Shown: positions 2,331 through 33,592 of the stretch, one piece after another
Layout: each line of letters begins with the position of its first letter
Position numbering within the stretch: the first letter of the stretch is position 1
Assembly (NCBI GenBank): GCA_017308375.1
Contig: JAFKEW010000042.1
Span: 1 to 64,000 of the forward strand
Source: Alphaproteobacteria bacterium
GTDB lineage: Bacteria > Pseudomonadota > Alphaproteobacteria > Micropepsales > Micropepsaceae
Reading direction: 5' to 3'
Length of the DNA: 64,000 nucleotides
Made by a program: the position numbers and the translations under genes
The notes under the pieces: generated by a model
What the model saw: the letters and a program-made list of their open reading frames with translations, nothing else
What the model was told of the DNA's origin: nothing
Databases searched by the model: none

Positions 2331-2548
2331 TCGGATGGTCTGGTCTGACCGAACGCCGTATCGCTGGCGCTTTTCCTCGATCTCCCGCGCAACCGCGCGC
2401 CCCGAATTTTTTCCGCCGCCTTCGGCTTTGCAGCGCGAAGCAAAAAATCCGGCGCGCCCGGTCCGCCGCTGACGCTCCGGCCCGTCCGGGTGCGGATCGC
2501 TCGCCTTCGGTCCCTTGACCGCCATCGAGGCCGCAATGGCGCGGCCCG
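2331..2548 (+). repeat. Diverged duplicated leader, copy 1 (upstream of the methyltransferase)
   Basis: This stretch is recognisably related to 3595-3807. Both share the TCTGACCGA start, an identical core (CCGCCGCCTTCGGCTTTGCA...), the CGCTGACGCT block and the CGCCATCGAGGCCGC block. Each copy ends 22 bases before the ATG of the next gene. Within it, 2397-2412 can pair with 2442-2457 (14 of 16 positions). The stem sequence differs from copy 2 but pairing is kept, which suggests a folded leader RNA. Confidence 0.75.
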
Positions 2549-2570
2549 GCAACGGACAAGGATCACCGTC

Positions 2571-3263
2571 ATGGCCAGCTTCGTCATCCCCCGGCAACTT
2601 CCCGATCTTCCGATCACAGCGCGCAACGCCGTCCTGCAGGGCGACTGCACCGCACTGATGCGGCGCATGGAACGGGACTCGGTGGATTTTATCCTGACCG
2701 ACCCGCCCTACATCACCCGCTATCGCGGGCGTGACGGCCGCACCGTCGCCAATGACGACAACGCCCGCTGGCTCAAACCCGCCTTCCGCGAGATGCACCG
2801 CGTCCTGAAACCCGCTTCCTTCTGCGTCAGCTTCTACGGCTGGGCCAAGATCGACCTGTTCGCCGCCGCCTGGCGCGCCGCCGGCTTCCGCATCGTCGGC
2901 CACATCGTCTTTCGCAAATCGTATGCCTCGTCCGCGCGCTTCCTGCGCTACGAACACGAGCAAGCCTATCTGCTCGCCAAGGGCGACGTGGCGCTGCCCG
3001 CCCAGCCGATCCCCGACGTGATCGACTTCCCCTATACCGGCAATCGCCTGCATCCGACGCAGAAGCCGGTGACGGCGCTGAAGCCGCTGATCGCAGCGTT
3101 CTGCCCGCGCAACGGACTGGTGCTCGATCCGTTCTGCGGCTCGGGCTCGACGCTGGTCGCCGCGCGCGACCTTGAGCGCGGTTATCTCGGCATCGAGCTG
3201 AGCGCCGCTCATCATCGCACGGCGTGCGAACGGCTCGACGCTCCGCAGAGGGTTGCCGCGTAG
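2571..3263 (+). CDS. DNA adenine/cytosine-N4 methyltransferase
   Basis: The 230-residue protein carries the catalytic DPPY motif near residue 45 (LTDPPYITRY). An AdoMet-binding FCGSGST motif lies near residue 190 (LDPFCGSGSTLVAARDL). This catalytic-then-cofactor order is that of beta-class amino methyltransferases. No restriction enzyme gene adjoins, so it is probably a solitary methylase protecting or marking the element. A longer frame opens at 2490. ATG 2571 is chosen because the protein begins there in normal family form and the upstream part is the repeated leader. Confidence 0.9.
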   Translation: MASFVIPRQLPDLPITARNAVLQGDCTALMRRMERDSVDFILTDPPYITRYRGRDGRTVANDDNARWLKPAFREMHRVLKPASFCVSFYGWAKIDLFAAAWRAAGFRIVGHIVFRKSYASSARFLRYEHEQAYLLAKGDVALPAQPIPDVIDFPYTGNRLHPTQKPVTALKPLIAAFCPRNGLVLDPFCGSGSTLVAARDLERGYLGIELSAAHHRTACERLDAPQRVAA

Positions 3264-3594
3264 GCGGCGCAGCCCCTCCGGGATTGGCATTGCACCGTCC
3301 TGTCCCGATTCGCCTCGCTGATCCGCGCGGGGCGCCGCCGCGGCGGCGCGATCCTTTGCAGTTGCCGCTGCGGGCACGTCGTCGGCTTCGGGAGCACGCC
3401 CGCCCCATCGCCGACCGCAGCCGTGTCTTCGATCCGCTACGTCGTCGCCGCCGTCTTATCGCTGTGCCGGGTCTTTGCCGCCTTCCATCCGCCATTCCAG
3501 GTCGTTGCGCGATCGGTCCGGTGCGGCTCTTGCGGAAGGCTTCTCATGACCACCATGACTCCATGCGGGTCGGTCCAGACGCGGCCACGCCGCC
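3264..3594. other. Stretch without a supportable gene
   Basis: There are open frames on both strands, but they are arginine/proline-rich shadows typical of GC-rich non-coding DNA. They have no ribosome-binding site or recognisable domain. The stretch leads into the second copy of the duplicated leader. Confidence 0.6.
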
Positions 3595-3807
3595 TCGAAT
3601 GGCCTGATCTGACCGAGGGTCGGCTTCGCCTCGATCGCCTGCCCGCAACGGCGTCGGCCAGCTTTTTTCCGCCGCCTTCGGCTTTGCAGCGCGAAACAAA
3701 AAAGCTGGCCGTCGCCGTCCTTCGCTGACGCTGCGGCCGCAGGCGGTGCGTGTCGATCGTCTCCCCGGTCCAGTGATCGCCATCGAGGCCGCGATGGTCG
3801 CGGCCCG
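3595..3807 (+). repeat. Diverged duplicated leader, copy 2 (upstream of a small gene)
   Basis: This is the second copy of the unit at 2331-2548. Its stem (3651-3668 with 3698-3715) pairs at 17 of 18 positions around the same conserved core. The stem sequence differs from copy 1, so the differences are compensatory. It precedes the ATG at 3830 by 22 bases. Confidence 0.75.
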
Positions 3808-3829
3808 AACAACCGAAGGAGTACAGGTC

Positions 3830-4033
3830 ATGAGCAACAAGCCTTCTTTCATCGCCTACGCCGTCCGCCAGCGCGCCGAGGGTGAAAAGGCCAACTGGAC
3901 GGCGATCGGCGTCGCCTGGGCGCACAAGAAGGGCGGCGGCTTCAATGTCGAGCTGGAAGCCACGCCGCTGGACGGCCGCATCGTCCTGATGCCGCCGAAG
4001 GACGACGACGGCTCCGACAGCGCCTCCGACTGA
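3830..4033 (+). CDS. Small conserved element protein, unknown function
   Basis: A 67-residue protein with a basic, aromatic middle (WTAIGVAWAHKKGGGFNVEL) and an acidic tail (DDDGSDSASD). AGGAG at 3817-3821 sits eight bases before the ATG. The pattern of a short beta-rich domain resembles small proteins seen on other sphingomonad and rhizobial elements, from memory only. No function is assigned. A strong terminator follows. Confidence 0.65.
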   Translation: MSNKPSFIAYAVRQRAEGEKANWTAIGVAWAHKKGGGFNVELEATPLDGRIVLMPPKDDDGSDSASD

Positions 4034-4057
4034 GGCCCGCCGCCACCGTCTCGGCCC

Positions 4058-4085
4058 GACGCCCCGCTCTTTGGAGCGGGGCGTC
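4058..4085 (+). terminator. Perfect 12-bp hairpin terminator
   Basis: GACGCCCCGCTC at 4058-4069 pairs perfectly with 4074-4085 across a TTTG loop. TTCGCGTCTAT follows. It ends the small gene's transcript 24 bases after its stop. The T tail is weak but the stem is very stable. Confidence 0.65.
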
Positions 4086-4127
4086 TTCGCGTCTATCGTT
4101 CCGATTGCTGCGCGTGACCGCACGCCA

Positions 4128-4430
4128 TCAAGCGTCGTAGCCTTTGGCGTCTTCGGCGGCTTGGGTCAGCAGGTGGCGATAGCCCCGCTTCGTCATCCAA
4201 TGCGCACGGTCGAGATGGCTTTCCCAGCAGCGCCGGGTCCGCGCCTGGTCAGCAGTCGGATCGCGATGCAGCACGATGCGCGCGACCTCCGCCCAATCCG
4301 CGCCGTCCGCCTCGGCATCGAGCAGCCGAAGATAAGTAATGGCATGAGCGTCATCGTAGGGCGTGATCATCTCGAAGCCGTTGGGGGCTTCGTCATCGAC
4401 ATCGGGATCGAGTTCCGGCTTCACGCGCAT
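4128..4430 (-). CDS. Small YLRLLDA-family protein, probable regulator
   Basis: A 100-residue protein whose C-terminal 60 residues (AITYLRLLDAEADGADWAEVARIVL...SHLDRAHWMTKRGYRHLL) align well with the protein at 6581-6844. The two are therefore paralogues. I recall relatives being labelled DUF2285 or 'DNA-binding domain', but cannot confirm this. The frame is open from 4493. GGAGGAG just upstream of ATG 4430 decides the start. It is transcribed against its neighbours. Confidence 0.7.
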   Translation of the reverse strand: MRVKPELDPDVDDEAPNGFEMITPYDDAHAITYLRLLDAEADGADWAEVARIVLHRDPTADQARTRRCWESHLDRAHWMTKRGYRHLLTQAAEDAKGYDA

Positions 4431-4714
4431 GAGACTCCTCCATCCAAGAAAGAGGGTCCGTCCATCATAGTCGATCCGGGCGCCGACGATCATGAAACCA
4501 GCGCCGAGACTCTTGCAGGGAATGCAACGGGCGTTGCGCTGCGCGCCGCGCTCTCGACTGCGCCGGAACCCTGTTCCGGGTTTCCTCCCTCCGGCTTCGA
4601 TCGCTAACGTAAGGGCGAGCGGACGGCTTCGCCGGGGCTTTTGTGGATCGCTTTGCTAAGGGCTCCGCCCTCGCGCGGGCAAGGGTAAAGCGCCGGCGGG
4701 CCGGCGCCGACCGG
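4431..4714. other. Intergenic stretch upstream of repeat copy B
   Basis: No supportable gene. It must hold the promoter of the minus-strand gene ending at 4128 and the one for the DUF932 gene. A 7-bp perfect hairpin (CCGGAAC at 4563-4569 with GTTCCGG at 4573-4579) is followed by a pyrimidine run and may be a terminator. Confidence 0.45.
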
Positions 4715-4801
4715 GCCGGTTTCCCCGACCTTCCTTCGCCTGCGGCTCCGTGCAGGCCGGGTGATCCCCCTCCGGCCCGGTCGCCCTTGCCCTTGCTACC
4801 C
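4715..4801. repeat. Long direct repeat, copy B (leader of the DUF932 gene)
   Basis: Identical over 87 bases to 1-87. It ends 13 bases before the DUF932 start codon and immediately abuts the CAGGAGA ribosome-binding sequence. The copy spacing is 4,714 bases. Confidence 0.95.
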
Positions 4802-4814
4802 AGGAGACTTCCCC

Positions 4815-6005
4815 ATGAACACCGTAACTTTGAACCAACAGCCCGTTTCGAGCGGCTATCGCGTGGACATCTCGCGCGGCCAGCGGATCGGCCGCGTATC
4901 CTCGGAATGGTTCTCGCGCCCCGATGACGAGCGCTATTTGAGCCTGACCGCCTTGCATGAAGCGGTGCGCCGCCGGGCGGAGAGCGCGACCGCGCGCACC
5001 GTGGAGAGCCGCGCCGTGAAGGTGGAAGCGAGCCGGGACGACGCCGAGCGGCTAGCGCTGACCGTGCCGGGACGGGATGAACCCGTGTCCTCGACGCATT
5101 GGAGCTTCGGCCAGTTGTGCAGCTTGGTCGGCGCGCCCGCGTCCTACATGCGCCAGCTTCCCGCGCCCTTGGCGGGGATCAACCTGCAACACGGCTTGCT
5201 CAACCACCGCGCCGAATTGGTCAAGACCTTGGAGGCGGAGGACGGGCGGGTGGAGCTTCGCGCCGTCACTGGCCCCGATTACGGCCGCATCTGGGATCAC
5301 GAGCTTGTCGCCGCCGTGCAGCGCATCGCGGGCGACGGCACCGGGGATACCCGATGGAAGGTGCCGGGCGTGCTGGATTGGGCGACCATGACGCACAACC
5401 CGTTCGTGGACGTGACCGCCGAGACGACGACGCTCTATGCCAGCGACCGCGACGTGTTCCTATTCCTGGTGGACGACACGCACCCCATCGAGGCGGGGCG
5501 CCTCGCCGATGGCTCGCCCGATTTGTATTTCCGGGGCTTCTATGCCTGGAACAGCGAAGTCGGATCGAAGACGCTGGGCATCGCCTCGTTCTATCTGCGC
5601 GCCGTGTGCCAGAACCGCAACCTATGGGGCACGGAGAATTTCGAGGAAATCACCATCCGGCACAGCAAGTTCGCGGCGCAGCGTTTCGCGCATGAAGCGG
5701 CCCCCGCCTTGACCAGCTTCGCCAATTCATCACCCGCGCCGTTCGTCGCCGGGATCAAGGCCGCGCGCGAGCGCGTCGTCGCCCGCACCGACGAGGACCG
5801 CGAGAGCTTCCTGCGCAAGCGCGGCTTCTCCAAGCCCGAGACGGCGACGATCATCGAGACCGTGTTGAACGAGGAAGGCCGCCCGCCGGAAAGCATCTTC
5901 GATTTCGTGCAGGGCATCACCGCGCTGGCCCGTAGCAAGGCCCATCAGGACACACGCCTGGAGCTGGAAGGCAAGGCGAAGAAGCTGATGGATCGTGCCG
6001 CCTGA
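4815..6005 (+). CDS. DUF932 (phage/plasmid-like) protein
   Basis: The 396-residue protein matches the DUF932 family found on plasmids, phages and ICEs. Recognisable blocks include SFGQLCSLVGAPASYMRQLP, DYGRIWDHELV and FYLRAVCQNRNLWGTENFEEITIRHSKFA. The family's biochemical role is not established; an association with DNA maintenance is suggested by context. The start is ATG 4815, preceded by AGGAGA at 4803-4808, rather than the upstream in-frame start at 4761 that lies inside the repeat. It shares its 87-base leader with the ParB-like gene, so the two are likely co-regulated. Confidence 0.88.
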   Translation: MNTVTLNQQPVSSGYRVDISRGQRIGRVSSEWFSRPDDERYLSLTALHEAVRRRAESATARTVESRAVKVEASRDDAERLALTVPGRDEPVSSTHWSFGQLCSLVGAPASYMRQLPAPLAGINLQHGLLNHRAELVKTLEAEDGRVELRAVTGPDYGRIWDHELVAAVQRIAGDGTGDTRWKVPGVLDWATMTHNPFVDVTAETTTLYASDRDVFLFLVDDTHPIEAGRLADGSPDLYFRGFYAWNSEVGSKTLGIASFYLRAVCQNRNLWGTENFEEITIRHSKFAAQRFAHEAAPALTSFANSSPAPFVAGIKAARERVVARTDEDRESFLRKRGFSKPETATIIETVLNEEGRPPESIFDFVQGITALARSKAHQDTRLELEGKAKKLMDRAA

Positions 6006-7002: not shown

Positions 7003-7789
7003 ATGCCAGCGACATCCGACTGGCGATCCGCGCAGGTCGCCGATGTCATGAAGCGTTTGGAACGACCGGGCTTCGCCGTCGAGTTTCTGCGCCGCAGCCC
7101 CGTCTACCGCACCGATTACACCAGCACGCGGCGCCGCATCGCGGCGGGCGCGGCGAGCGAGGGCCGCGCGCTTGCGGACCTCGCCCGCCGATGGGGGTTG
7201 AGCTTTCCCTTTCGATCCCGCGGCCGCGTCCGATGCGCGGCCGATCTTCTGGCAGCCGGACTTGCTGCCGGTCACGGTGCTGCTGACCGCCGCGCCGTCC
7301 TGCTTCGAGAGCGCGCCGACCGATGACCTCGCGTCGTTGTCGCCGGGTGCGACGCTGGACCAGGCGGACGGCCGCCACATGGTTCTCGACGAATCCTCCG
7401 GCGCGCATCGGCTCTGGTATCTCGATCCGGCGCCCGGCCAGCCGCTCGGCGTTCTCATTCCGCTCGATGCGGACTTCCGCATCCGGCTCGACGCGGCGCT
7501 GCGCTTCCATCGCCGGCTTACCGGCACGCCCGTCGGGCCGCTGCCGCGCGGCTGGCGATTGACCGCCATGCAGCGTCGCCGCCTCATCCTGATGCTGCGC
7601 GCGCTCGACGGTCGGCAGGCCGGCGCCAGCTACCGCGACATCGCTTTGGCATTGTTCGATGCGCAAGAGGCGCGCTGGCCGGCGCGCGACTGGAAATGCT
7701 CCGCCGCGCGCTCGCATGTCATCCGGCTCGTGGCGGACGCCATCGCGCTGATGAACGGCGGCTATCGCAAGCTGCTGCGCGGACGCTGA
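7003..7789 (+). pseudogene. DUF6499/DUF2285 regulator-like gene broken by a one-base frameshift
   Basis: The first part (7003-7212) reads as a DUF6499 N-terminal domain (SDWRSAQ...AEFLRRSPVYRTDY type), ending ...RRWGLSFPF. The second part continues in another frame as DPAAASDARPIFWQPDLLP and the DUF2285 domain (RRLILMLRALDGRQAGASYRDIALALF...SHVIRLVADAIALMNGGYRKLL). Removing one T from the TTT at 7210-7212 joins them perfectly. The intact protein would be about 261 residues. These proteins are usually element regulators near traF and relaxase genes. It could be a true mutation or a sequencing error. Confidence 0.8.
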
Positions 7790-7990: not shown

Positions 7991-8272
7991 ATGTCCGACA
8001 ACCCCTATCGGTTGCCGCCGCGCTATTTGCGCACGCCCGAAGCCGCACGGTTTCTCGGCCTGTCCGGCCGCACGCTCGAAAAGCACCGCACCTTCGGCAC
8101 CGGCCCGATCTATCGCAAGCTCGGCGGCCGCATCGTCTATGCGCTCGACGATCTGCAAGCCTGGGCCGATCGCGGCCTGCGCCAATCCACCTCCGATCCC
8201 GGCCACGGCATCGTCCATCCCGCCAAACCGCAGACGCCGCGCGACGACGACGGCGCGCCTTATGCCCGGTGA
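7991..8272 (+). CDS. AlpA/MerR-like helix-turn-helix protein
   Basis: A 93-residue protein with a winged helix-turn-helix of the excisionase/AlpA type: YLRTPEAARFLGLSGRTLEKHRTFGTGPIYRKLGGRIVYALDDLQAWAD. GGAGG sits just before the ATG. Five bases separate it from the DUF2840 gene, so they are likely co-transcribed. It could regulate transfer genes or assist excision; position beside tra genes favours a regulator. Confidence 0.82.
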   Translation: MSDNPYRLPPRYLRTPEAARFLGLSGRTLEKHRTFGTGPIYRKLGGRIVYALDDLQAWADRGLRQSTSDPGHGIVHPAKPQTPRDDDGAPYAR

Positions 8273-9268: not shown

Positions 9269-10168
9269 ATGCCGCGCTCTCCCACCCAATCCCCCATTCC
9301 TCTGTTCGATCGGAGCACGCACCATTCCTCCGTCCCGACCGGGATCGCATCAGCCGCCGCGCGCAGCGGCGGTCCAGGGCGGCCGCATGGCCGGCGCGAA
9401 CGCGCTTCATCCTGGACGGGCGCGAGCACGGTGGCAGGCTGGCGGCGCATCGGGTTGGCGATGTGCCGGATGTCCTTCGTCAGCCTGCTGCTGACCATGA
9501 CGAGCCTGACGGCGCTGGCGCAGTCACCACCGCCACTAGCCCCCACGCAGAGCCACGGAAGCGACGGTCCGTTCGCGGATTTCATCGGGGAGGCGTCGCG
9601 CCGCTTCGGTCTTCCGACGACATGGATACGCGCCGTCATGCAGGCCGAAAGCGGCGGCGATGCGCGCGCGGTGTCGTCCAAGGGCGCGATGGGGCTGATG
9701 CAGATCATGCCAGGCACCTGGGCGGCGTTGCGGGCGCGCTACCATCTGGGCGCCGATCCGTTCGACGCGCATGACAATATTCTCGCAGGCGTCGCGTTCC
9801 TGCGTGAGCTGTATGACCGCTATGGCGCACCGGGTTTTCTCGCCGCCTACCAGGCCGGTCCGCGGCGCTATGAAGATCATCTGACGACGGGCCGCGCGCT
9901 GCCGCCCGACACACGATCGTATGTCGCGGCGCTGGCGCCGGTGATCAGCGGCGTGTCCGACACCCATCAGATTGCTGTCGCTGATCCGCTCGCTTGGACG
10001 CGCGCACCGCTGTTCGCCGTGTCAAACAACGGCGCGTCGGCTGTCGCGTCCGATGCAAATCCATCGCCGCCCCGTCGACCGGACTCCGACCCTGCCGCGG
10101 TCGAAGCGTCGTCGCTCGGACCGCAAGCCGATGGCCTGTTCGTGCCCGTCGCGGGACACAGGCCATGA
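9269..10168 (+). CDS. Lytic transglycosylase (SLT domain)
   Basis: The SLT fold lies at about residues 105-215. The catalytic glutamate is in MQAESGGD, followed by SSKGAMGLMQIMPGTW and LAAYQAGPRRYEDH. A hydrophobic signal-like segment (MSFVSLLLTMTSLTALAQ) occurs well inside the frame. Either the protein has an unusual 64-residue N-terminal extension, or translation starts at ATG 9461. I keep 9269, which directly follows traF. The protein would open peptidoglycan for assembly of the secretion channel. Confidence 0.82.
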   Translation: MPRSPTQSPIPLFDRSTHHSSVPTGIASAAARSGGPGRPHGRRERASSWTGASTVAGWRRIGLAMCRMSFVSLLLTMTSLTALAQSPPPLAPTQSHGSDGPFADFIGEASRRFGLPTTWIRAVMQAESGGDARAVSSKGAMGLMQIMPGTWAALRARYHLGADPFDAHDNILAGVAFLRELYDRYGAPGFLAAYQAGPRRYEDHLTTGRALPPDTRSYVAALAPVISGVSDTHQIAVADPLAWTRAPLFAVSNNGASAVASDANPSPPRRPDSDPAAVEASSLGPQADGLFVPVAGHRP

Positions 10169-10713
10169 GGATCGCCTATGCCGATCCGCCTTATATCGGC
10201 TGCGCGCATCTCTATCGCGGCCGGCCCGACTATGCCGGCGAAGTCGATCATGCGCGGCTGATCGCACGGCTCCAGCGCGACTATGACGGCTGGATATTGC
10301 ACGCCGCCGCGACGCCGGAATCGTTCGCCGTTCTCGCGCCGCTGATAAGGCCGACCGGCGCCCGATGGATGGCCTGGGTGAAGGGGTTTGCGGCGTTCAA
10401 GCGCAATGTGCCGGTCGCCTGGGCGTGGGAGCCGGTCATCGTGAAGCCCGCACGCAAGCCCGTCGTCAGTAAGCGGCTGGTCATGCGCGACTGGATTCAG
10501 GAGAGCATCACGCTGCGCCGTGGATTGACCGGCGCCAAGCCCGAAGCCGTGTGCCATTGGGCCTTCGAGATGGTCGCCGCGCGCCCCGACGACACGCTCG
10601 ACGATCTGTTTCCTGGCACCGGGGCGGTCACGAAAGCCTGGGCGAATTGGCGTCTCAAATTCGCGCTGCCCGCCGATCCGGGCGCAGCAACCGTGCCCGC
10701 CGCCGCGCCATGA
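10165..10713 (+). CDS. DPPY-containing methyltransferase-like protein
   Basis: A 182-residue protein opening with MRIAYADPPYIG, which resembles the catalytic motif of DNA amino-methyltransferases. A later DDLFPGTGAVTKAW resembles an AdoMet-site motif. It is shorter than typical methylases and recurs beside relaxase genes in related elements. It may be an active modification enzyme or a derived DNA-binding protein. It overlaps the transglycosylase by four bases. The candidate oriT lies just downstream. Confidence 0.6.
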   Translation: MRIAYADPPYIGCAHLYRGRPDYAGEVDHARLIARLQRDYDGWILHAAATPESFAVLAPLIRPTGARWMAWVKGFAAFKRNVPVAWAWEPVIVKPARKPVVSKRLVMRDWIQESITLRRGLTGAKPEAVCHWAFEMVAARPDDTLDDLFPGTGAVTKAWANWRLKFALPADPGAATVPAAAP

Positions 10714-10784
10714 AGTCCATCGGCTTCTTTCGCAGCCTGTCGCGCCCCATCGCACATTCGGTAGCAGGAGCCGTCGCAGAAGGA

Positions 10785-10907
10785 CCACCAACCGCACGAT
10801 GGCAGGATAAAAGGCGGCGATGTGCCGCGCGGTCGGTTGGTGGGATTTCAAGGGGTTATGGACCGATTCCGCGAGGTGCGCCGCGAGTGCGCAGCCTGCG
10901 GAATCGG
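10785..10907. other. oriT: Candidate origin of transfer (oriT) with nic core
   Basis: The minus strand of 10809-10802 reads TATCCTGC, which fits the IncP/VirD2-type nic consensus YATCCTG|Y. The predicted nick is between 10803 and 10802. The core is centred inside a perfect 10-bp inverted repeat (10785-10794 with 10834-10843). A second perfect 10-bp inverted repeat (10863-10872 with 10898-10907) contains a smaller nested one. The region is non-coding and ends 48 bases before the relaxase start. The predicted transferred strand would lead towards position 1. Confidence 0.7.
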
Positions 10908-10954
10908 GCGAGTATCTGTCTTTGCTCGGCATTTTGCGATGTGCGGGGCAAGGC

Positions 10955-12691
10955 ATGACGCGGGACGACGATTTCCGCGTCCGCCCGGGCCGCATCCGCT
11001 CCAGGGGCGCGCAGCGCGCACGGCCCTTCATCGCCCAGGCGCTCGCCGCCGCGCAGAAGGCCGGAGGCCGCATCTCGCGCAGCGGCCGCATCGTCAGCCC
11101 GCGCGGCAGCAGGATGGGCCGGGGCCGTTCGGCCAGCGTCCGCGCCAACCGCCTCCTGACCAGCCGCTCGCGCGGCGCCGTGGTGAAGGCGCGCGTGGTC
11201 CGGCACAGTGGCAAGGGTGCGCCACTCGCCACTCATCTCAATTATCTCCAGCGCGATGGCGTCACCCGCGATGGCGAGAAGGGCCGCCTGTTCGGACCGG
11301 AGATCGATGAGGCCGACGGCCGCGCCTTTGCCGAACGCTGCGAGCAGGACCGGCATCATTTCCGGTTCATCGTCTCGCCCGACGACGCGGTGGAGATGGC
11401 GGACCTCAAACGCTTCACCCGCGATCTGATGCGCCAGGCCGAGCAGGATTTGGGGACCGGCCTCGATTGGGTCGCCGTCGATCACTGGAACACCGAGCAT
11501 CCCCACATCCATGTCATCGTCCGCGGTATGCGCGACGACGGGCGGGATCTGGTCATCGCCCGCGACTATATCCGCGAGGGCCTGCGCGACCGGGCGCGCG
11601 ATCTCATCACCCAGGAGCTGGGCCTGCGCACCGATCTCGACATCCGCCGCACGCTGGAACGGCAGATCGAGGCCGAACGCTGGACCAATCTCGACCGCCA
11701 GCTCGCCCGCGACGCCGAGCGGGGCGTAATCGATATGGCGCCAGCGCCGGGTGAGCAGCCCGATGCGTTTCATGCGCTGAAGGTCGGGCGGCTGCGCAAG
11801 CTGGAGAGTCTCGGCCTCGCCGAGCAACTCGCGCCGGGGCAATGGACGCTGGCGGACAACGCCGAGGCGACCCTGCGCGAGTTGGGCCTGCGCGGCGACA
11901 TCATTAAGCGCATCCATCGCGGTCTGACCGAACAGAAGCTCGATCGGGGCGCGTCGAGCTTCGTCCTCGCCGGCGAGAGTCTCGGCGATCCGGTGGTCGG
12001 CCGGTTGATCGCGCGCGGCCTCGACGACGAGTTGGCCGGTAGCGCCTATGCGGTGGTTGATGGCATCGACGGCCGCACCCATCATCTGCGGCTTCCCGAT
12101 CTCGACGCGGCCGGAGATTCCCCGCCCGGTTCCATTGTCGAGTTGCGCCGATTCGAGAACGCGCGCGGGGAACGGCGCGTCGCATTGGCCGTCCGCTCCG
12201 ACCTCGGGATCGAGGCGCAGGTGACGGCGGCGGGCGCAACCTGGCTCGACCGTCAGCTCATCGGCCGCACGCCGCCGGCGCTGGGCGAAGGCGGGTTCGG
12301 CGCGGAGGTGAACGCGGCGATGCGGGCGCGCGCCGAGCATCTGATCGAGGAAGGGTTGGCCCGCCGCCAGAACGAGCGGCTCATCTTCGCCCGCGATTTT
12401 CTCAGCACGCTGCGCAAGCGGGAGCTGGACCAGGTGGCCGCGAAGCTATCGGTGGACCATAGTCTCCCGTATGTCGCCGCCGCTCCCGGTGAGCATGTGG
12501 CGGGCGACTATCGCCGCCGGCTTGACCTCAGTTCCGGGCGCTTCGCCATGATCGACGACGGCCTGGGATTCAGTCTGGTGCCGTGGTCGCCGTCGCTCGA
12601 ACGCCAGCTGGGGCGGCATGTCGCCGGCATCGCCCGCGACGATGGCGGAATCGATTGGGGTTTCGGCCGCAAGCGCGGCCTCGGCCTATAG
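10955..12691 (+). CDS. VirD2/TraI-type relaxase (DUF3363)
   Basis: The 578-residue protein begins with a basic region. ATHLNYLQRDGV at about residues 90-100 carries the probable nicking tyrosine. HHFRFIVSP and the metal-binding histidine cluster NTEHPHIHVIVRG follow at about residues 128 and 180. The rest matches the DUF3363 tail. It should nick oriT, remain bound to the 5' end and be passed to TraG. The frame opens at 10820, but that extension covers the oriT repeats. ATG 10955 (MTRDDDFRVRPGR) is the familiar family start. Confidence 0.92.
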   Translation: MTRDDDFRVRPGRIRSRGAQRARPFIAQALAAAQKAGGRISRSGRIVSPRGSRMGRGRSASVRANRLLTSRSRGAVVKARVVRHSGKGAPLATHLNYLQRDGVTRDGEKGRLFGPEIDEADGRAFAERCEQDRHHFRFIVSPDDAVEMADLKRFTRDLMRQAEQDLGTGLDWVAVDHWNTEHPHIHVIVRGMRDDGRDLVIARDYIREGLRDRARDLITQELGLRTDLDIRRTLERQIEAERWTNLDRQLARDAERGVIDMAPAPGEQPDAFHALKVGRLRKLESLGLAEQLAPGQWTLADNAEATLRELGLRGDIIKRIHRGLTEQKLDRGASSFVLAGESLGDPVVGRLIARGLDDELAGSAYAVVDGIDGRTHHLRLPDLDAAGDSPPGSIVELRRFENARGERRVALAVRSDLGIEAQVTAAGATWLDRQLIGRTPPALGEGGFGAEVNAAMRARAEHLIEEGLARRQNERLIFARDFLSTLRKRELDQVAAKLSVDHSLPYVAAAPGEHVAGDYRRRLDLSSGRFAMIDDGLGFSLVPWSPSLERQLGRHVAGIARDDGGIDWGFGRKRGLGL

Positions 12692-13398: not shown

Positions 13399-15381
13399 AT
13401 GTCGGGCGGCAAGATTCTATGGGGCCAGATGCTGATCGTTTTTGCGATCATCCTCGCCACCACCTGGGGCGCGACCGAGTGGACGGCGTGGCAGCTGGCG
13501 TTCCAGCCGCAGCTCGGGCCGCCCTGGTTCGCCGTCTTGGGGTTCCCGTTCTATCCGCCGCCGGCCTTCTTCTGGTGGTGGTTCGCCTATGACGCCTATG
13601 CGCCGCACATCTTCGTCGAGGGCGCTTACATCGCCGCGTCCGGCGGTTTCCTGGCGGTCGCCATCGCCATCGGCATGTCGGTCTGGAGCGCGCGCGAGGC
13701 CAAGAACGCCGAGACCTATGGCTCGGCGCGCTGGGCGACGCCGGACGAGATGCGCGACGCTGGGCTGCTCGGCGAGGATGGCGTGGTGCTCGGCAAATAC
13801 CGCCGCGCCTATCTGCGCCATGACGGACCCGAGCATGTGCTGTGCTTCGCGCCGACGCGCTCGGGCAAAGGGACGGGCCTGGTCGTGCCATCGCTCCTAA
13901 CCTGGCCGGGAAGCTGCATCGTGCATGACATCAAGGGGGAAAATTGGGATCTGACATCGGGCTTCCGATCGACCTTCGGCCGGGTGCTGCTGTTCGATCC
14001 GACGAATCCCGACTCCGCCGCCTACAATCCATTGCTCGAAGTGCGCCGCGGCCCGCTGGAGGTGCGCGACGTGCAGAACGTCGCCGACGTGCTGGTCGAT
14101 CCCGAAGGCTCGCTGGAGCGGCGCACCCATTGGGAGAAGACCAGCAACAGTCTGCTGGTCGGCGCGATCCTGCATGTGCTCTACGCCGAACCGGACAAGA
14201 CGCTGGCCGGCGTCGCGCAGTTCCTGTCGGACCCGCGCCGGCCGATCGAGACCACGCTGAAGATCATGATGACCACCCGGCACCTGGGCGATGCCGGTCC
14301 GCATCCGGCGGTGGCTTCGACGGCCAGGGAGCTGCTCAACAAATCCGACAATGAACGATCGGGCGTATTGAGCACGGCCATGTCGTTTTTGGGCCTCTAT
14401 CGTGATCCGGTGGTGGCGCAAGTGACGCGCCGCTGCGACTGGCGCATCGCCGATCTGATCGAGAGTGAGAAGCCGGTGACGCTGTATCTCGTCGTGCCGC
14501 CGTCCGACATCAGCCGCACCAAGCCGCTCATTCGCTTGGTGCTCAACCAGATCGGCCGACGTCTCACCGAGGAACTGCATCCCAAGAACCGCCGCCATCG
14601 CATGTTGCTGATGCTCGACGAGTTTCCCGCGCTCGGCCGGCTCGATTTTTTCGAGAGCACCTTGGCCTTCATGGCGGGCTATCGTCTTAAAGCCTTTTTG
14701 ATCGCGCAGAGTTTGAACCAGATCGAGAAGGCGTATGGCGCCAACAACTCGATCCTGGACAACTGCCATGTGCGGGTCTCGTTCGCTACCAATGACGAGC
14801 GCACCGCCAAGCGTGTGTCGGATGCGCTTGGCACTGCCACCGAGATGCGGGCGATGAAGAACTATGCCGGCAGCCGGCTGTCGCCCTGGCTCGGTCATCT
14901 CATGGTCTCGCGCTCGGAGACCGCGCGCCCGCTCCTGACCCCCGGCGAGGTGATGCAGCTTCCGCCCAGCGACGAGATCGTCATGGTCGCCGGAATGCAT
15001 CCGGTGCGGGCCAAGAAGGCGCGCTACTTCAAGGATCGCCGTTTCAACGAGCGCATCCTGCCGCCACCCGAAGCCACTGCCGTTGCGACGCCGCGGCCGG
15101 ATGATTGGACATCGCTGCCGACGCCGACCCGCGAAGACGTGCGCGATACCGCCGCACCGGCGCCTGACGAGGCGGAGGATACGGCCAATGGCGGGATTCG
15201 CCGCGAACCGGGGCTGGAACCGCACAAGGACATCGTGCCCGAGGCGCGGCCGACGGAGGATGAGTTTCACCTCGATCGTGACGAGGACGATGCCGAGGCC
15301 GCCCGCGCCCGGACATTGCTGCGGATGCGCCAGCTCGCGCGCGGCATCTCGCTCGATCCAGGCGACGACATGGAGATGTGA
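13399..15381 (+). CDS. traG: TraG/VirD4-type coupling protein
   Basis: A 660-residue inner-membrane ATPase. Two N-terminal membrane segments lie within residues 5-100. A Walker A follows at about 150 (FAPTRSGKGTGLVVPSLL), then YNPLLEVRRG and a Walker B region (LMLDEFPALGRLDFFESTLAFMAGY). It links the relaxase-DNA complex to the Trb channel. GGAGAG precedes the ATG. Its stop overlaps the next start (GTGA), so the downstream ribbon-helix-helix protein is coupled to it. Confidence 0.94.
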   Translation: MSGGKILWGQMLIVFAIILATTWGATEWTAWQLAFQPQLGPPWFAVLGFPFYPPPAFFWWWFAYDAYAPHIFVEGAYIAASGGFLAVAIAIGMSVWSAREAKNAETYGSARWATPDEMRDAGLLGEDGVVLGKYRRAYLRHDGPEHVLCFAPTRSGKGTGLVVPSLLTWPGSCIVHDIKGENWDLTSGFRSTFGRVLLFDPTNPDSAAYNPLLEVRRGPLEVRDVQNVADVLVDPEGSLERRTHWEKTSNSLLVGAILHVLYAEPDKTLAGVAQFLSDPRRPIETTLKIMMTTRHLGDAGPHPAVASTARELLNKSDNERSGVLSTAMSFLGLYRDPVVAQVTRRCDWRIADLIESEKPVTLYLVVPPSDISRTKPLIRLVLNQIGRRLTEELHPKNRRHRMLLMLDEFPALGRLDFFESTLAFMAGYRLKAFLIAQSLNQIEKAYGANNSILDNCHVRVSFATNDERTAKRVSDALGTATEMRAMKNYAGSRLSPWLGHLMVSRSETARPLLTPGEVMQLPPSDEIVMVAGMHPVRAKKARYFKDRRFNERILPPPEATAVATPRPDDWTSLPTPTREDVRDTAAPAPDEAEDTANGGIRREPGLEPHKDIVPEARPTEDEFHLDRDEDDAEAARARTLLRMRQLARGISLDPGDDMEM

Positions 15382-15803
15382 CGGTGAAGAAGGTCCGGCT
15401 TTCCGTCTATCTCGATCCCGACGTGATGCAGGCGCTGGCGTCCTACGCCGCGCGGCGCGGTCAGTCGCGGTCGCTGATCGCCGAGGCGGCGATCGCCTCC
15501 TTCCTGTCGCCGGACGCGGCCGAGCGGCAGGAAGCGGCCGTCACCAAACGGCTCGATCAGATGGATCGGCGGATGCTGCGCACGGAGCGCGATGTCGGCA
15601 TCACCGTCGAGCTGTTGGCGCTGTTCGTGCGCTTCTGGCTGACCAGCACGCCCGCGCTTCCCGAACCGGCGCAGGCCGCCGCCCGCGCCCAGGGGGACAA
15701 GCGCTATGACGGGTTCATGGAGGCGCTCGGCAAGCGGCTCGCCAAGGGACCGAATGTGCGGCAGGAGATACCCGAAGATCATCCCCGCGCGGGCGACCTT
15801 TAG
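15378..15803 (+). CDS. CopG/ribbon-helix-helix-type protein
   Basis: A 141-residue protein whose first 45 residues (KKVRLSVYLDPDVMQALASYAARRGQSRSLIAEAAI) form a ribbon-helix-helix DNA-binding motif. The remainder is helical. It starts at GTG 15378, overlapping traG; GTG 15384 is an alternative. The position between traG and trbB is conserved in related elements, where it is thought to regulate the trb operon. The 271 bases that follow hold no gene and probably the trb promoter. Confidence 0.8.
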   Translation: MTVKKVRLSVYLDPDVMQALASYAARRGQSRSLIAEAAIASFLSPDAAERQEAAVTKRLDQMDRRMLRTERDVGITVELLALFVRFWLTSTPALPEPAQAAARAQGDKRYDGFMEALGKRLAKGPNVRQEIPEDHPRAGDL

Positions 15804-16074: not shown

Positions 16075-17064
16075 ATGACAGTGACGGTCCAGTCCTTCCG
16101 AGCAGAGGCGATTTCCCGCGGCGCGCGGATGCTGCGCACCGCTCTGGGCACCTGCATCGCCACCTGGCTGGAAGACCCGGCCATCGTCGAGGTGATGCTC
16201 AATCCCGACGGCCGGCTTTGGGTCGATCGGCTGAGCGACGGCCTTGCCGATACGGGCGAACATCTGTCGGCCGCCGACGGCGAGCGCATCATCCGGCTGG
16301 TCGCGCACCATGTCGGCGCCGAGGTCCATGCCGGCAACCCGCGCGTTTCCGCCGAGCTGCCGGAGACCGGGGAGCGGTTCGAGGGCTTGCTGCCGCCGGT
16401 GGTGACGGCGCCCGCTTTTGCCATCCGCAAGCCCGCGGTCGCGGTGTTTTCGCTCGACGATTACGCCCGCGCCGGGATCATGACGGCGGATCAGGCGGCG
16501 TTGCTGCGCCGGGCGGTGCAGGAGCGCCGCAACATCCTGGTCGCCGGCGGCACCTCGACCGGCAAGACCACGCTCACCAATGCGCTGCTGGCGGAAGTCG
16601 CGGGCACCGCCGATCGCGTGGTGCTGATCGAGGACACGCGCGAGCTTCAATGCAAGGCGCCCAATCTGGTGGCGCTCAGGACCAAGGACGGCGTGGCGTC
16701 GCTGTCGGACCTGGTGCGGTCCTCGCTGCGCCTGCGCCCCGACCGCATCCCGATCGGCGAGGTGCGCGGCGCCGAGGCGCTCGACTTGCTCAAAGCCTGG
16801 GGCACCGGCCATCCGGGCGGTATCGGCACCATCCACGCCGGTTCCGCGCTGGGCGCGCTGCGCCGCCTCGAACAGCTCATCCAGGAAGCGGTCGTCACCG
16901 TCCCGCGTGCCTTGATCGCCGAGACCATCGATGTCGTCGCGGTGCTGTCCGGCCGGGGCGCCGAGCGGCGGCTGGCCGAGCTGGCCGGCGTCGCCGGGCT
17001 GTCGTCCGCTGGCGATTACCACCTCACCGATCTTTCCCACGCCTCGACAGGAGATCAGCCATGA
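16075..17064 (+). CDS. trbB: TrbB, VirB11-family secretion ATPase
   Basis: A 329-residue hexameric ATPase of the type II/IV secretion family. It has a Walker A near residue 160 ([17 protein letters not shown]), an Asp box ([14 protein letters not shown]) and a His box ([14 protein letters not shown]). It powers pilus and channel assembly at the inner membrane. The ATG lies in ggggATGAC at 16071-16079. It is the first gene of a tightly packed operon that overlaps trbC by four bases. Confidence 0.93.
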
Positions 17065-17390
17065 TTCGTGTTTTTCGTCTTCGTCATTCCTTCCTCGGCG
17101 CGGCCGGCGCCGTGTTCGCCAGCCTGATGACCGCTCCGATGGCCTATGCGGCCGGCTCGTCGATGCCCTGGGAACAGCCGCTGAACCAGATTCTGGAATC
17201 GGTGCAAGGCCCCGTCGCCAAGATTATCGCGGTCATCATCATCATCGTCACCGGCCTGACGCTGGCGTTCGGGGACACGTCCGGTGGTTTCAGGAGATTG
17301 ATCCAGATCGTCTTCGGTCTCTCGATCGCCTTCGCGGCGTCGAGCTTCTTTCTTTCATTCTTTTCGTTCAGCGGCGGGGCGCTGGTCTGA
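17061..17390 (+). CDS. trbC: TrbC, conjugative pilin precursor
   Basis: A 109-residue protein with a long signal sequence ending near MAYA (about residues 28-30), followed by two hydrophobic helices (KIIAVIIIIVTGLTLAFG and IVFGLSIAFAASSFFLSFF). This is the VirB2/TrbC layout. It is the expected substrate of the TraF peptidase encoded upstream. It overlaps trbB and trbD. Confidence 0.9.
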   Translation: MIRVFRLRHSFLGAAGAVFASLMTAPMAYAAGSSMPWEQPLNQILESVQGPVAKIIAVIIIIVTGLTLAFGDTSGGFRRLIQIVFGLSIAFAASSFFLSFFSFSGGALV

Positions 17391-17668
17391 TGGCCGAGTT
17401 CATCAGCCAAGAGACCGTTGCCGGGTTCTTCGCGCCGGTGCATCGCGCGCTCAGCGAACCGATTCTGCTGGGCGGCGCGCCGCGGGCCGTGGCGATCGCC
17501 AACGGCACGCTGGCGGCCGCGATCGGGCTCGGCCTGCGGCTGTGGATTCCGGGCCTCGTCATCTGGGCGATCGGTCACGCCGCTGCCGTCTGGGCGGCCA
17601 AGCGCGATGCGCAGTTCGTCGATGTGGTGCGCCGGCATCTGCGCTATCCGGCCTATCTGCGGGTGTGA
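17390..17668 (+). CDS. trbD: TrbD, VirB3-like membrane protein
   Basis: A 92-residue protein with an N-terminal VHRALSEPILLGGAPRAVAI block typical of TrbD/VirB3, and one or two membrane segments (about residues 35-68). It associates with the TrbE ATPase in the inner membrane. It shares one base with the trbC stop and ends seven bases before trbE. Confidence 0.9.
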   Translation: MAEFISQETVAGFFAPVHRALSEPILLGGAPRAVAIANGTLAAAIGLGLRLWIPGLVIWAIGHAAAVWAAKRDAQFVDVVRRHLRYPAYLRV

Positions 17669-17675
17669 GGCGGCC

Positions 17676-20105
17676 ATGCTGAACCTCGCCGAATACCGCA
17701 ACAGGGCCGCCCGGCTGGCCGACTTCCTGCCTTGGGCCGCGCTCGTCGGCGAAGGCGTGGTCCTGAACAAGGACGGCTCGTTCCTGCGCAGCGCGCGCTT
17801 CCGCGGACCTGATCTTGATTCTGCGACCTCGGCCGAGCTGGTCGGCGCCACGGCGCGGCTGAACAATGCGCTGCGGCGGTTGGGATCGGGCTGGGCGATC
17901 TTCGTCGAGGCGCAGCGCCATCCCGCTACCGCCTATCCCGATAGCCGATTTCCCGATCCGGTCTCGGCGCTGGTGGATCATGAGCGCCGCGCGCAGTTCG
18001 AGGAAGAAGGCGCGCACTTCGAGAGCACCTATTTCCTGACGCTACTGTGGCTGCCACCGGCCGAGGATGCGGCGCGCGCCGAAGGCTGGCTTTACGAAGG
18101 CCGCTCGCAGAAGGGTGTCGATCCCAAGGAATTGCTGCGCGGCTTCATCGACCGCACCGATCGCGTGCTGCAACTGGTCGAGGGCTTCGTCCCCGAAGTG
18201 GTATGGCTAGGCGACGCCGAGACCCTGACTTACCTGCACAGCACGGTCTCGACCCGGCGCCAGCGCGTGCGCGTGCCCGAAACGCCGATGTATCTCGATG
18301 CGCTTCTGGCGGACGAGCCGCTGACGGGCGGTCTCGAACCGAAGCTCGGCCATCATCACCTGCGCACGCTCACCGTCGTCGGATTCCCGACGATGACCCA
18401 TCCGGGCATCCTCGACGAACTCAACCGGCTCGCCTTTCCTTATCGCTGGATGACGCGCGCGCTCTGTCTCGACAAGACGGACGCGACGAAGCTCATCACC
18501 CGAATCCGGCGGCAATGGTTCGCCAAGCGCAAATCGATCGCCGCCATCGTCAAGGAAGTGATGACGAACGAGGCGTCGGTGCTGCTGGACAGCGACGCGG
18601 CTAACAAGGCCGCCGATGCGGATCTGGCCTTGCAGGAATTGGGCGCGGACCACGCCGGCGAAGCCTATGTCACCGCCACCGTCAATGTCTGGGATGAGGA
18701 TGCCGGGATCGCGGCCGAGAAGCTGCGGCTGGTCGAGAAGATCATCCAGGGCCGTGACTTCACCTGCATGACGGAAGGCGTGAACGCCGTCGAAGCCTGG
18801 CTCGGCAGCCTGCCGGGACACGTCTACGCCAATGTCCGCCAGCCGCCGCTCAGCACGCTCAATCTGGCGCACATGATTCCGCTGTCGGCGGTCTGGGCGG
18901 GGCCGTCGCGCGATGCGCATTTCGATGCGCCGCCGCTGTTCGTCGCCAAGACGGAAGGCTCGACCCCGTTCCGCTTCGCCCTGCATGTCGGCGATGTCGG
19001 CCATTGCCTGATCGTCGGACCCACGGGCGCGGGCAAGAGCGTGCTGCTCGCGCTGATGGCGCTGCAATTCCGCCGCTACCGCCATGCCCAGGTGTTCGCT
19101 TTCGATTTTGGCGGTTCGATCCGCGCGGCCAGCCTGGCGATGGGCGGCGATTGGCACGATCTCGGCGGGGCGCTGGCCGGGGATGCGAGCGAACCCGTCG
19201 CCTTGCAGCCGTTCGCGCATATCGACGACGCGGGAGAGCGCGCGTGGGCGGCCGAGTGGATGGCCGCCATTCTGGCGCGCGAGGGCGTCACCGTCGATCC
19301 GCAGGCCAAGGACCATCTCTGGTCGGCGCTGACCTCGCTCGCCTCCGCGCCCGAATCCGAGCGCACGCTGACCGGCCTCGCCGTGCTGCTTCAGGCGCAG
19401 AGCTTGAAGCAGGCGTTGCGGCCCTATTGCATCGGCGGCGCCTTCGGCCGGCTGCTCGACGCCGAGAGCGAGCGGCTCGGCAGCGCATCGGTCCAGGCGT
19501 TCGAGACGGAAGGGTTGATCGGCGCCGGCGCCGCGCCCGCGGTACTGTCCTATCTCTTCCACCGCATCGAAAGCCGGCTCGACGGCAGCCCGACGCTGTT
19601 GATCGTTGACGAAGGCTGGCTAGTGCTGGACTCGCCGGAGTTCGCGCAGCAGCTCCGCGAATGGCTGAAGACCTTGCGGAAGAAGAACGCCTCGGTCGTC
19701 TTTGCCACGCAATCGCTGGCCGACATCGAGACCAGCGCCATCGCCCCGGCGATCGTCGAGAGCTGTCCGACCCGGCTGTTCCTGCCCAACGAGCGGGCGA
19801 TCGAACCGCAGATCACAGCCATCTATCGCCGCTTCGGGTTGAACGATCGCCAGATCGAAATCCTGAGCCGCGCGACGCCGAAGCGCGATTATTACTGCCA
19901 GTCACGGCACGGCAACCGGCTGTTCGAGCTGGGCCTGGGCGAAGTCGCGCTCGCCTTCACCGCCGCCTCGTCCAAATCCGATCAGATCGCCATCGCCGAC
20001 ACGCTCGCCGCGCATGGCCGCGACGGCTTCGCCGCCGCCTGGCTCGCGGCGAAGGACGCCGCCTGGGCGGTCGAGCTGCTTCCCACAATGGAGTCATTGC
20101 CATGA
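17676..20105 (+). CDS. trbE: TrbE, VirB4-family conjugation ATPase
   Basis: An 809-residue ATPase of normal length for the family. Walker A is at about 447 (IVGPTGAGKSVLLALMALQF) and Walker B at about 635 (TLLIVDEGWLVLDSPEF). FATQSLADIETSAIAPAIVESCPTRLFLPN is a family signature. It energises pilus assembly and substrate passage. The downstream trbJ starts inside its stop codon (ATGA). Confidence 0.95.
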   Translation: MLNLAEYRNRAARLADFLPWAALVGEGVVLNKDGSFLRSARFRGPDLDSATSAELVGATARLNNALRRLGSGWAIFVEAQRHPATAYPDSRFPDPVSALVDHERRAQFEEEGAHFESTYFLTLLWLPPAEDAARAEGWLYEGRSQKGVDPKELLRGFIDRTDRVLQLVEGFVPEVVWLGDAETLTYLHSTVSTRRQRVRVPETPMYLDALLADEPLTGGLEPKLGHHHLRTLTVVGFPTMTHPGILDELNRLAFPYRWMTRALCLDKTDATKLITRIRRQWFAKRKSIAAIVKEVMTNEASVLLDSDAANKAADADLALQELGADHAGEAYVTATVNVWDEDAGIAAEKLRLVEKIIQGRDFTCMTEGVNAVEAWLGSLPGHVYANVRQPPLSTLNLAHMIPLSAVWAGPSRDAHFDAPPLFVAKTEGSTPFRFALHVGDVGHCLIVGPTGAGKSVLLALMALQFRRYRHAQVFAFDFGGSIRAASLAMGGDWHDLGGALAGDASEPVALQPFAHIDDAGERAWAAEWMAAILAREGVTVDPQAKDHLWSALTSLASAPESERTLTGLAVLLQAQSLKQALRPYCIGGAFGRLLDAESERLGSASVQAFETEGLIGAGAAPAVLSYLFHRIESRLDGSPTLLIVDEGWLVLDSPEFAQQLREWLKTLRKKNASVVFATQSLADIETSAIAPAIVESCPTRLFLPNERAIEPQITAIYRRFGLNDRQIEILSRATPKRDYYCQSRHGNRLFELGLGEVALAFTAASSKSDQIAIADTLAAHGRDGFAAAWLAAKDAAWAVELLPTMESLP

Positions 20106-20866
20106 TCCGTATCCGCCGTCGCGCGGCATTGATCGCCGCGTCCACGCTCGCATTGTCGCTCGCGCTGTCGCCCTTGGCGGTCACGCCAGCCTATGCGCTC
20201 TTCGGCGTCGGCGACATCGTATACGACCCGACCAATTACGCGCAGAACGTCTTGCAGGCCGCCCGCGCGCTGCAACAGATCGACAACCAGATCACCGCGC
20301 TCCAGAACCAGGCGCAGATGCTGATCAATCAGGCGCGCAATCTGGCGAGCCTGCCGTATTCCGCGCTGTCGCAGCTTCAATCCTCGATCCAGCGTACCCA
20401 GCAGCTTCTCGGCCAGGCGCAACGCATCGCCTATGACGTGACGCAGATCGAGCAGGCGTTTCAGACGAGCTACGGCCCGGTCTCGACCACCGCGTCCGAT
20501 CAGGCGCTGATCGCCGGCGCGCAGGATCGCTGGCAGACCTCGGTGGCGGGCTTCGAGGATGCGCTGAAGGTGCAGGCCGGCGTCGTCGGCAACCTCGACA
20601 CCACCCGCACCCAGATGAACGCGCTGGTGACATCGAGCCAGTCGGCGACCGGCGCGCTTCAGGCGGCGCAGGCCGGCAACCAGATGCTGGCGCTGCAATC
20701 GCAGCAGATCGCCGATCTGACGGCGACCGTGGCCGCGCAGGGCCGCGCCGAGATGCTGGAGGATGCGCGCGAGGCCGAGGCCGAAGCGCAGGGCCAGGAG
20801 CAGTTCCGCCGCTTCATGACGACGGAAGGCTATCAGCCCTATCCGGTCCAAGCCTTCCACGAATGA
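20102..20866 (+). CDS. trbJ: TrbJ, VirB5-like protein
   Basis: A 254-residue secreted protein with a clear signal peptide (residues 1-31, ending TPAYA). A long helical, glutamine-rich region follows (ALQQIDNQITALQNQAQMLINQARNLASLP), typical of TrbJ. It is a minor pilus component or tip protein. It overlaps both neighbours by four bases. Confidence 0.9.
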   Translation: MIRIRRRAALIAASTLALSLALSPLAVTPAYALFGVGDIVYDPTNYAQNVLQAARALQQIDNQITALQNQAQMLINQARNLASLPYSALSQLQSSIQRTQQLLGQAQRIAYDVTQIEQAFQTSYGPVSTTASDQALIAGAQDRWQTSVAGFEDALKVQAGVVGNLDTTRTQMNALVTSSQSATGALQAAQAGNQMLALQSQQIADLTATVAAQGRAEMLEDAREAEAEAQGQEQFRRFMTTEGYQPYPVQAFHE

Positions 20867-20874
20867 GGGCGGCG

Positions 20875-21141
20875 ATGGACGACAAGCGAACCCTCAAGAT
20901 CGTCGTCATCGCCGTCCTGGGCGCCGTGGCGCTCGCGGTCGTGATTGCCTTCGACACCACCGATCGCACGCCACGGCAGGACGTGTCCGCCCCAGCGGTC
21001 AGTGACCGCCGCGATCCGCTGGATGCCGAGTTGGCGCGGTGCCGCGACCTCGGCCCCGATGATCCGGTCGATGCACGCTGCCGTGCCGCCTGGGCCGAAA
21101 GCAACCGTCGCTTCTTCGGCGACGACAAGCCGGGGAGGTGA
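20875..21141 (+). CDS. trbK: TrbK-like small protein, putative entry exclusion
   Basis: An 88-residue protein with one N-terminal membrane helix (LKIVVIAVLGAVALAVVIAF) and a short periplasmic domain with two cysteines (LARCRDLGPDDPVDARCRAAW). That is the layout of the alternative TrbK found in this operon position. In-frame ATGs are at 20863 (overlapping the trbJ stop) and 20875. GAGGGCGG fits the second. Entry exclusion is the classical TrbK role; it is not proved here. Confidence 0.75.
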   Translation: MDDKRTLKIVVIAVLGAVALAVVIAFDTTDRTPRQDVSAPAVSDRRDPLDAELARCRDLGPDDPVDARCRAAWAESNRRFFGDDKPGR

Positions 21142-21144
21142 GCG

Positions 21145-25349: not shown

Positions 25350-25607
25350 ATGCCCAAGTTGAAGCTCGGCCCGCTCGCCGACGACCGCCCGGTCAAGCTG
25401 ACCATCGAATTGCAGGCGCTCGTGCATCGCGATCTCGTCGCCTATGCCGAAGTCCTCGGCCGCGAGACCGGGCAGACCGTATCCGACCCGGCCAAGCTGA
25501 TCGGTCCGATGTTGGCGCGCTTCATGGCGACCGACCGCGCCTTCGCCAAGGCCCGCAAGCAGGGCGCAGGCGGACGGCCTCACTCCGGCTCCGGCAGCGC
25601 CGGATAG
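25350..25607 (+). CDS. DUF2274 protein
   Basis: An 85-residue protein (KLKLGPLADDRPVKLTIELQALVHRDLVAYAEVL...LIGPMLARFMATDRAF) matching DUF2274, a small family found right after trbI in such operons. The fold resembles a ribbon-helix-helix protein and it may be regulatory. GGA lies just before the ATG. Its 3' end overlaps the convergent LysR gene by 28 bases. Confidence 0.82.
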   Translation: MPKLKLGPLADDRPVKLTIELQALVHRDLVAYAEVLGRETGQTVSDPAKLIGPMLARFMATDRAFAKARKQGAGGRPHSGSGSAG

Positions 25608-26563: not shown

Positions 26564-26656
26564 CACTTCATCCCGCCGACAGACGGCCATTGGTGGTTGC
26601 CGACTGTCGCGCTGCGTTTCCTCCCTCTCGACGTCTTTTCGATTACGCGGATATCC

Positions 26657-30048: not shown

Positions 30049-30051
30049 GGG

Positions 30052-30771: not shown

Positions 30772-30819
30772 CGACGTTTCCCTCTCCGATTCCATTTGAT
30801 GCACTATTCTCGTCTCGTT

Positions 30820-32473: not shown

Positions 32474-32475
32474 AA

Positions 32476-33528: not shown

Positions 33529-33592
33529 AACGATCACTCCACATCAGCGGGCCCCCAACCGGGAGCCCGCCTATTGGCCGCGCATCGCGTGC

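Follow-up and report, generated by a model that had tools for sequence, protein, structure and literature searches.

A predicted oriT upstream of an RlxS-type relaxase gene in an alphaproteobacterial contig, and a nic base that changes with two relaxase residues

The 241-bp gap at positions 10714-10954 of the window (the whole 64,000-nucleotide stretch analyzed) is very probably the oriT of an RlxS/Tn4371-type integrative-conjugative element (ICE) or conjugative plasmid, with a predicted cut between 10803 and 10802 and transfer of the ParB side first. On the sequence evidence, it is close to certain that an oriT lies at 10785-10843. The first-pass annotation had predicted this function, and the prediction gained support from a core conserved in front of close relaxases and from the matching core and hairpin of Tn4371-type relatives. 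Comparison of about 190 loci further suggests that residues 74 and 143 of the relaxase change together with nic base -3. Such oriT sites are of an already known kind, and the relaxase-nic covariation may be the part that is new, possibly also to specialists. With this prediction, the start of transfer in a widespread alphaproteobacterial ICE/plasmid family is narrowed to one base. The features are as follows.

7991-8272, plus strand: HTH_17 protein, placed like rdfS in ICEMlSymR7A (Pfam; synteny per PMC11963761)
8278-10168, plus strand: DUF2840, S26 peptidase (traF) and SLT lytic transglycosylase, an operon upstream of oriT (Pfam)
10165-10713: small methylase-like ORF (recognized by its DPPY motif alone; no significant Pfam match)
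10714-10954: oriT-bearing intergenic region (ORFs and translations; equivalent gap in homologous loci)
10785-10794, plus strand: left arm of the outer inverted repeat, CCACCAACCG (repeat search, fold, arm-swap test)
10797-10813, minus strand: extended conserved core, CTTTTATCCTGCCATCG (alignment A1, 80 sequences)
10802-10809, minus strand: predicted nic core TATCCTG|C (fixed place in relatives, MOBP consensus, relaxase covariation)
10814-10828, minus strand: inner hairpin GCGGC-ACATC-GCCGC, on the 5' side of nic (covariation and fold)
10834-10843, plus strand: right arm of the outer inverted repeat, CGGTTGGTGG (repeat search, fold, arm-swap test)
10863-10907: second, imperfect inverted repeat, holding dyad 2 (repeat search)
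10871: dyad 2, GCGAGGTGC, within the second inverted repeat
10936-10944: dyad 4, GCGATGTGC, about 20 nt before the relaxase start
10955-12691, plus strand: RlxS-type relaxase, Relaxase + DUF3363, with Gly74/Asp143 as the predicted determinants of nic base -3 (Pfam, NCBIfam, alignment invariants, Foldseek)
13399-15381, plus strand: TraG/VirD4 coupling protein (Pfam, NCBIfam)
15378-15803, plus strand: ribbon-helix-helix (RHH) protein between traG and trbB (Pfam RHH_1)
16075-25338, plus strand: trb mating-pair operon (TrbB/T2SSE, TrbE, VirB8-type protein and TrbI by Pfam; others by order)

The gap is flanked by the small methylase-like ORF and the relaxase gene. The segment 10785-10843 within it has the traF/lytic-transglycosylase operon on one side and the DUF3363 (RlxS-type) relaxase on the other. 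On the minus strand, TATCCTGC occupies 10809-10802, as originally read. By analogy with RP4/VirD2, the nick is likely to leave a 3' OH at 10803 and a relaxase-linked 5' end at 10802. The perfect 10-bp inverted repeats described earlier were recovered with a spacer of 39 nt. The nic core, which had been called centered between them, lies 8 nt from the left arm and 31 nt from the right arm. An inner hairpin between nic and the right arm (arms 10814-10818 and 10824-10828, 11 nt from the nick) was overlooked in the first reading and is better conserved than the outer repeat. The second inverted repeat reported in front of the relaxase gene is present (10863-10881 and 10889-10907); it is imperfect (84% complementary) and belongs to a dyad array (see below). 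When folded as single-stranded DNA, 10780-10850 surpassed shuffled sequences (z -2.7; 3 of 200 shuffles as good), with an outer stem enclosing the inner hairpin and a largely unpaired nic core.

The window holds four copies of TATCCTGC, and the 3.58-Mb genome as a whole has 117; at the genome rate, about 0.008 copies are expected in a 241-bp gap. The 8-mer alone is weak evidence for a nic site, and its conservation at a fixed position is the decisive support. The check named beforehand concerned the presence of the nic motif upstream of close relaxase homologs: it was exact in 58 of 86 loci and a one- or two-base variant in the other 28. In all 86, the core, with the plus-strand form GGCnnGATAAA, preceded the relaxase by ~155 nt. 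GCAGGATA was exact in 58 of these close loci, and the others carried GCGA, GCCA, GCAA or GCGG plus GATA at the equivalent place. In the 80 aligned blocks of alignment A1, TTTATC, T55 and the bases next to the predicted bond (G51 on its 5' side, C52 and C53 on its 3' side) were invariant. A census of nic 8-mers in 127 loci, with relaxases down to ~37% identity, yielded TATCCTGC (63 loci), TATCTTGC (24), TATCTCGC (21) and TATCTGGC (10), and more rarely TGTCTTGC (4), TATCCCGC (2), CATCTTGC (2) and TATCTAGC (1). Judged from these alignments, TATCCTGC is one of several nic variants of RlxS/DUF3363 relaxases, next to TATCTTGC, TATCTCGC, TATCTGGC and TGTCTTGC. Nearly all of the more distant loci contained the core at a varying distance (roughly -98 to -276 from the relaxase); one of them, L122, had no recognizable core upstream of its relaxase. 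A recognizable core was also found on named conjugative plasmids, and the order traF operon-gap-relaxase recurs in pCHQ1 and pBAL398.1.

Pairing was analyzed separately for the two stems. An RNAalifold consensus fold of alignment A1 returned no structure, probably because the outer arms are out of register; in its place, base pairs were counted in the inner hairpin. In this hairpin, 86.5% of the cells were paired compared to 76.4 +/- 1.3% in shuffles (0 of 500 as good), a comparison inflated by relatedness among the sequences. There were 39 compensatory cells, and the paired cells were fewer in every slid register. At one pair, 41 sequences had G-C and 31 had C-G. For the outer arms in the register of the window, no conserved pairing signal was detected in relatives. 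Most sequences nevertheless retained some matching outer arms, the longest of which had a mean of 7.65, compared to 6.67 +/- 0.15 with arms swapped between sequences (0 of 1000), and this test is inflated by relatedness in the same way. The alignments mark the outer repeat as the least conserved part of the site. Since its register is not conserved, the 10-bp outer repeat was rejected as a defining feature and kept as a looser one.

The relaxase scored above the Pfam cut-offs for both DUF3363 (314.6 bits, cut-off 28.4) and Relaxase (28.0 bits, cut-off 24.6). Its match to NCBIfam RlxS NF041267 (615.2 bits, residues 5-398) is below the curated cut-off of 850, which classes it by profile score as RlxS-like and not as a strict NF041267 member. 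The start at 10955 is most likely, because homologs match from there, plasmid relaxases are annotated from there, and the ATG at 10820 lies inside the oriT. Tyr97 and His184/His186 were invariant in the relaxase alignment and fit an HUH relaxase. A sequence search of solved structures with the relaxase returned nothing relevant. With an AlphaFold model of residues 1-300, which is confident from ~75 to 222 and poor before, the best PDB folds found by Foldseek were MobA, NES and MobM. Residue 74 is at the edge of the confident part, directly before strand 75-83, and residue 143 directly follows strand 134-142.

These two residues were the only ones of 578 relaxase columns that separated nic base -3 without error in the 127 loci, the nic labels being taken from the DNA alone; the next best column left 34 rows in mixed states. 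Residue 74 was Gly with C at -3, and Asn, Leu, Phe, Val, Ile or Arg with T. Residue 143 was Asp with C, and Glu, rarely Gly or Gln, with T. In held-out loci, the base was correctly predicted in 57 of 59; this set includes four loci unreadable at first pass, was scored with a motif defined after the first set, and contains relaxases related to the first set, so it does not amount to 59 independent trials. The locus L202 was counted as a miss, yet its core, at the expected position of -154, fits the rule. A true exception is L204 (Asticcacaulis excentricus pASEM-1), which combines Leu74/Glu143 with TATCCTGC. A GntR regulator is annotated downstream at this locus in place of traG. Overall, 186 of 187 loci obey the residue rule, and the tree shows about seven changes. 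Independent pairs agreed in direction (5/5, p 0.0625; a second tree count gave four pairs), and none of the phylogenetic sign tests limited to well-supported branches was below 0.05.

On balance, we favor a two-residue switch, in which Gly74 with Asp143 would read C (TATCCTG|C) and another residue 74 with Glu143 would read T (TATCTNG|C); it would have flipped about seven times and would separate co-resident elements. For the window relaxase, minus-strand TTTTATCCTGCCATCG is the predicted best-cut substrate, ahead of TTTTATCTCGCCATCG and TTTTATCTTGCCATCG. If the switch is true, swapping residues 74 and 143 would swap the oriT cut, and the relaxase sequence alone would help to predict which non-conjugative DNA an element mobilizes.

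We compared the site with known oriTs. In ICEKKS102Tn4677, the traF-traI intergenic region works as an oriT, and deletion mapping delimited an essential 58-bp part consisting of a conserved 20-bp sequence, which contains CAAAAGG, and an inverted repeat (PMC11448139). OriTfinder failed to detect this oriT, according to the Tn4371 authors (PMC11448139). The window resembles this arrangement, as compared via the paper's text and homologous loci: an AAAAGG-containing core followed by an inverted repeat is found in the traF-relaxase gap. Tn4371-type relatives carry GGCAAGACAAAAGG and a hairpin at the equivalent place. GGAAGGCAAGACAAAAGG followed by a hairpin was found in L133-L135 and L139, which are from other proteobacterial classes, and in the P. 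aeruginosa plasmid pPUV-19 (8 bp). Unlike the TATCCTG|C of the window, the Tn4371-type nic core would be TGTCTTG|C, and the Tn4371-type relaxases are longer and ~45% identical to the window relaxase. For ICEMlSymR7A, PMC11963761 gives the order rdfS-traF-msi107-oriT-rlxS and reports mobilization of a plasmid with its oriT; for this oriT, PMC8627217 and PMC11963761 cite Verdonk et al. 2019. Matched by gene order, the window shares this arrangement, represented by HTH_17, DUF2840, the S26 peptidase and the SLT transglycosylase, with the small methylase-like ORF next to the oriT; it also shares an RlxS relaxase and trb-type transfer genes.

A nick elsewhere in the conserved block than at TATCCTG|C, in an otherwise real oriT, is unlikely. 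It would agree with the Tn4371 study, which puts nic probably somewhere in the conserved 20 bp (PMC11448139), and our literature search found no RlxS/DUF3363 relaxase with a mapped cleaved bond; a search for DUF3363 together with oriT likewise found no paper. Against it, the core matches RP4 over TATCCTGCC, and 10809-10802 on the minus strand fits the MOBP nic consensus (C/T)ATCCTG(C/T) (PMC3772185), also with an inverted repeat 5' of nic. Further points against it are the invariant G and two C around the predicted bond and the finding that position -3, on the 5' side of that bond, covaries with the relaxase. RP4 (IncP, TraI) further shares with the window trb-type mating-pair genes and, on the cut strand, a repeat to the 5' side of nic; the hairpin, spacing and accessory sites differ, and the window relaxase falls in the RlxS/DUF3363 group. 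In the oriT of the Helicobacter pylori tfs4 VirD2, cleavage at nic was demonstrated in vitro (PMC3772185). There too, TATCCTGC and an adjacent inverted repeat immediately precede the relaxase gene, but the relaxase type and the repeat are different. The label IncP/VirD2-type given in the first-pass annotation fits the 8-mer and does not extend to the relaxase, which is of the RlxS/DUF3363 type, ATCCTG being only one state in that family.

A short dyad recurs up to four times at fixed spacing, and the hairpin sequence, which in the window reads GCGATGTGC, is one of its copies. The dyads at -140, -86, -66 and -20 were present in 88, 69, 61 and 68 of 90 loci, respectively. Copies numbered 3.18 per 240 bp; base shuffles gave 0.026, and a control stretch taken upstream gave 0.06. 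Three matches, at 10817, 10871 and 10936, were found in the window, and the inner hairpin equals dyad 1. Therefore, the covariation of the hairpin alone does not prove a single-stranded hairpin. The dyads are putative binding sites of a relaxosome or regulatory protein.

Such fixed dyads directly upstream of the relaxase start are also what operators might look like, and the conserved block could be only a regulatory region of the relaxase operon, comprising autoregulator operators or a leader element. We regard this as very improbable, since it leaves unexplained why two relaxase residues covary with one core base, and the corresponding stretch of Tn4371, placed in a plasmid, suffices as an oriT. 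A pattern scan also revealed no promoter-like site, and an Rfam search of the oriT region found no family. Regulation and oriT function may coexist at the site. That the hairpin plus TTTT is an intrinsic terminator of minus-strand transcription, with TATCCTGC incidental, is hardly credible: the pattern scan flagged GCGGCACATCGCCGC CTTTTATCCT as terminator-like (1 found, 0.4 expected), but the genes identified to either side are plus-strand genes, with nothing obvious to terminate, conservation runs past the T-run through TATCYNGCC, and the relaxase covariation is again unexplained.

For the oriT, we infer nicking, the identity of the tyrosine, the direction of transfer and an accessory protein as follows. 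The RlxS-type relaxase would recognize the minus-strand core TTTTATCCTG|CC and the hairpin on its 5' side, and the outer arms are probably part of this recognition. An accessory protein probably binds the array of dyads that lies between nic and the start of the relaxase gene; the RHH protein at 15378-15803, a homolog of which adjoins the second relaxase of the same genome, is a candidate relaxosome accessory protein. The relaxase would cut between 10803 and 10802, and a tyrosine, probably Tyr97, would join the 5' end at 10802. Because this end is on the minus strand, polarity alone predicts transfer toward lower coordinates. The minus strand would leave leftward, and the methylase/ParB side, as the leading region, would enter first. 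The transfer order would be the methylase-like ORF, transglycosylase, traF, HTH_17, DUF932-like gene, DNA methylase and ParB, and lastly trb, traG and the relaxase. The DUF932 call on the ParB side is below threshold (19.3 bits, cut-off 23). The contig starts at window position 1, and the leading side is visible from there only. Beside trbI, a LysR-type regulator is encoded on the minus strand (25580-26590); in Tn4371 elements, the LysR regulator TraR activates transfer (PMC11448139). To the right of trb (26657-34789), transporter, arsC-, glyoxalase- and phosphate-transport-like ORFs were recognized by eye from the translations, possibly representing arsenic-related cargo.

A covariance model detected three sites in the same genome: the window site with TATCCTGC, and sites on contigs C27 and C34 (185-259), both with TATCTCGC. 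The C27 site adjoins the second relaxase, which has Asn74/Glu143. Elements that share a cell might cross-nick less if their nic specificities differ, an idea only. The C34 site (G000; L213, L224) scored 83.5 bits with nic TATCTCGC; the contig ends there, which leaves its relaxase out of view. In another genome (L222, G064:C33), which had no detected relaxase, two oriT-like copies (61-135 and 7139-7213) are ~7 kb apart and flank a tyrosine recombinase (1341-2450) and a CHC2/Toprim primase-like protein (2462-5650); the similarity of these copies to the model appears to fade past the nic core. Orphan oriT copies were considered as hitchhiking mobilizable elements, and this was rejected, the candidates inspected looking partial and not convincing. 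Orphan oriT-like sites were also seen at L236 (~7633-7703) and L238 (4090-4157), with a MazF/PemK-like ORF, recognized by eye, ~400-600 bp away.
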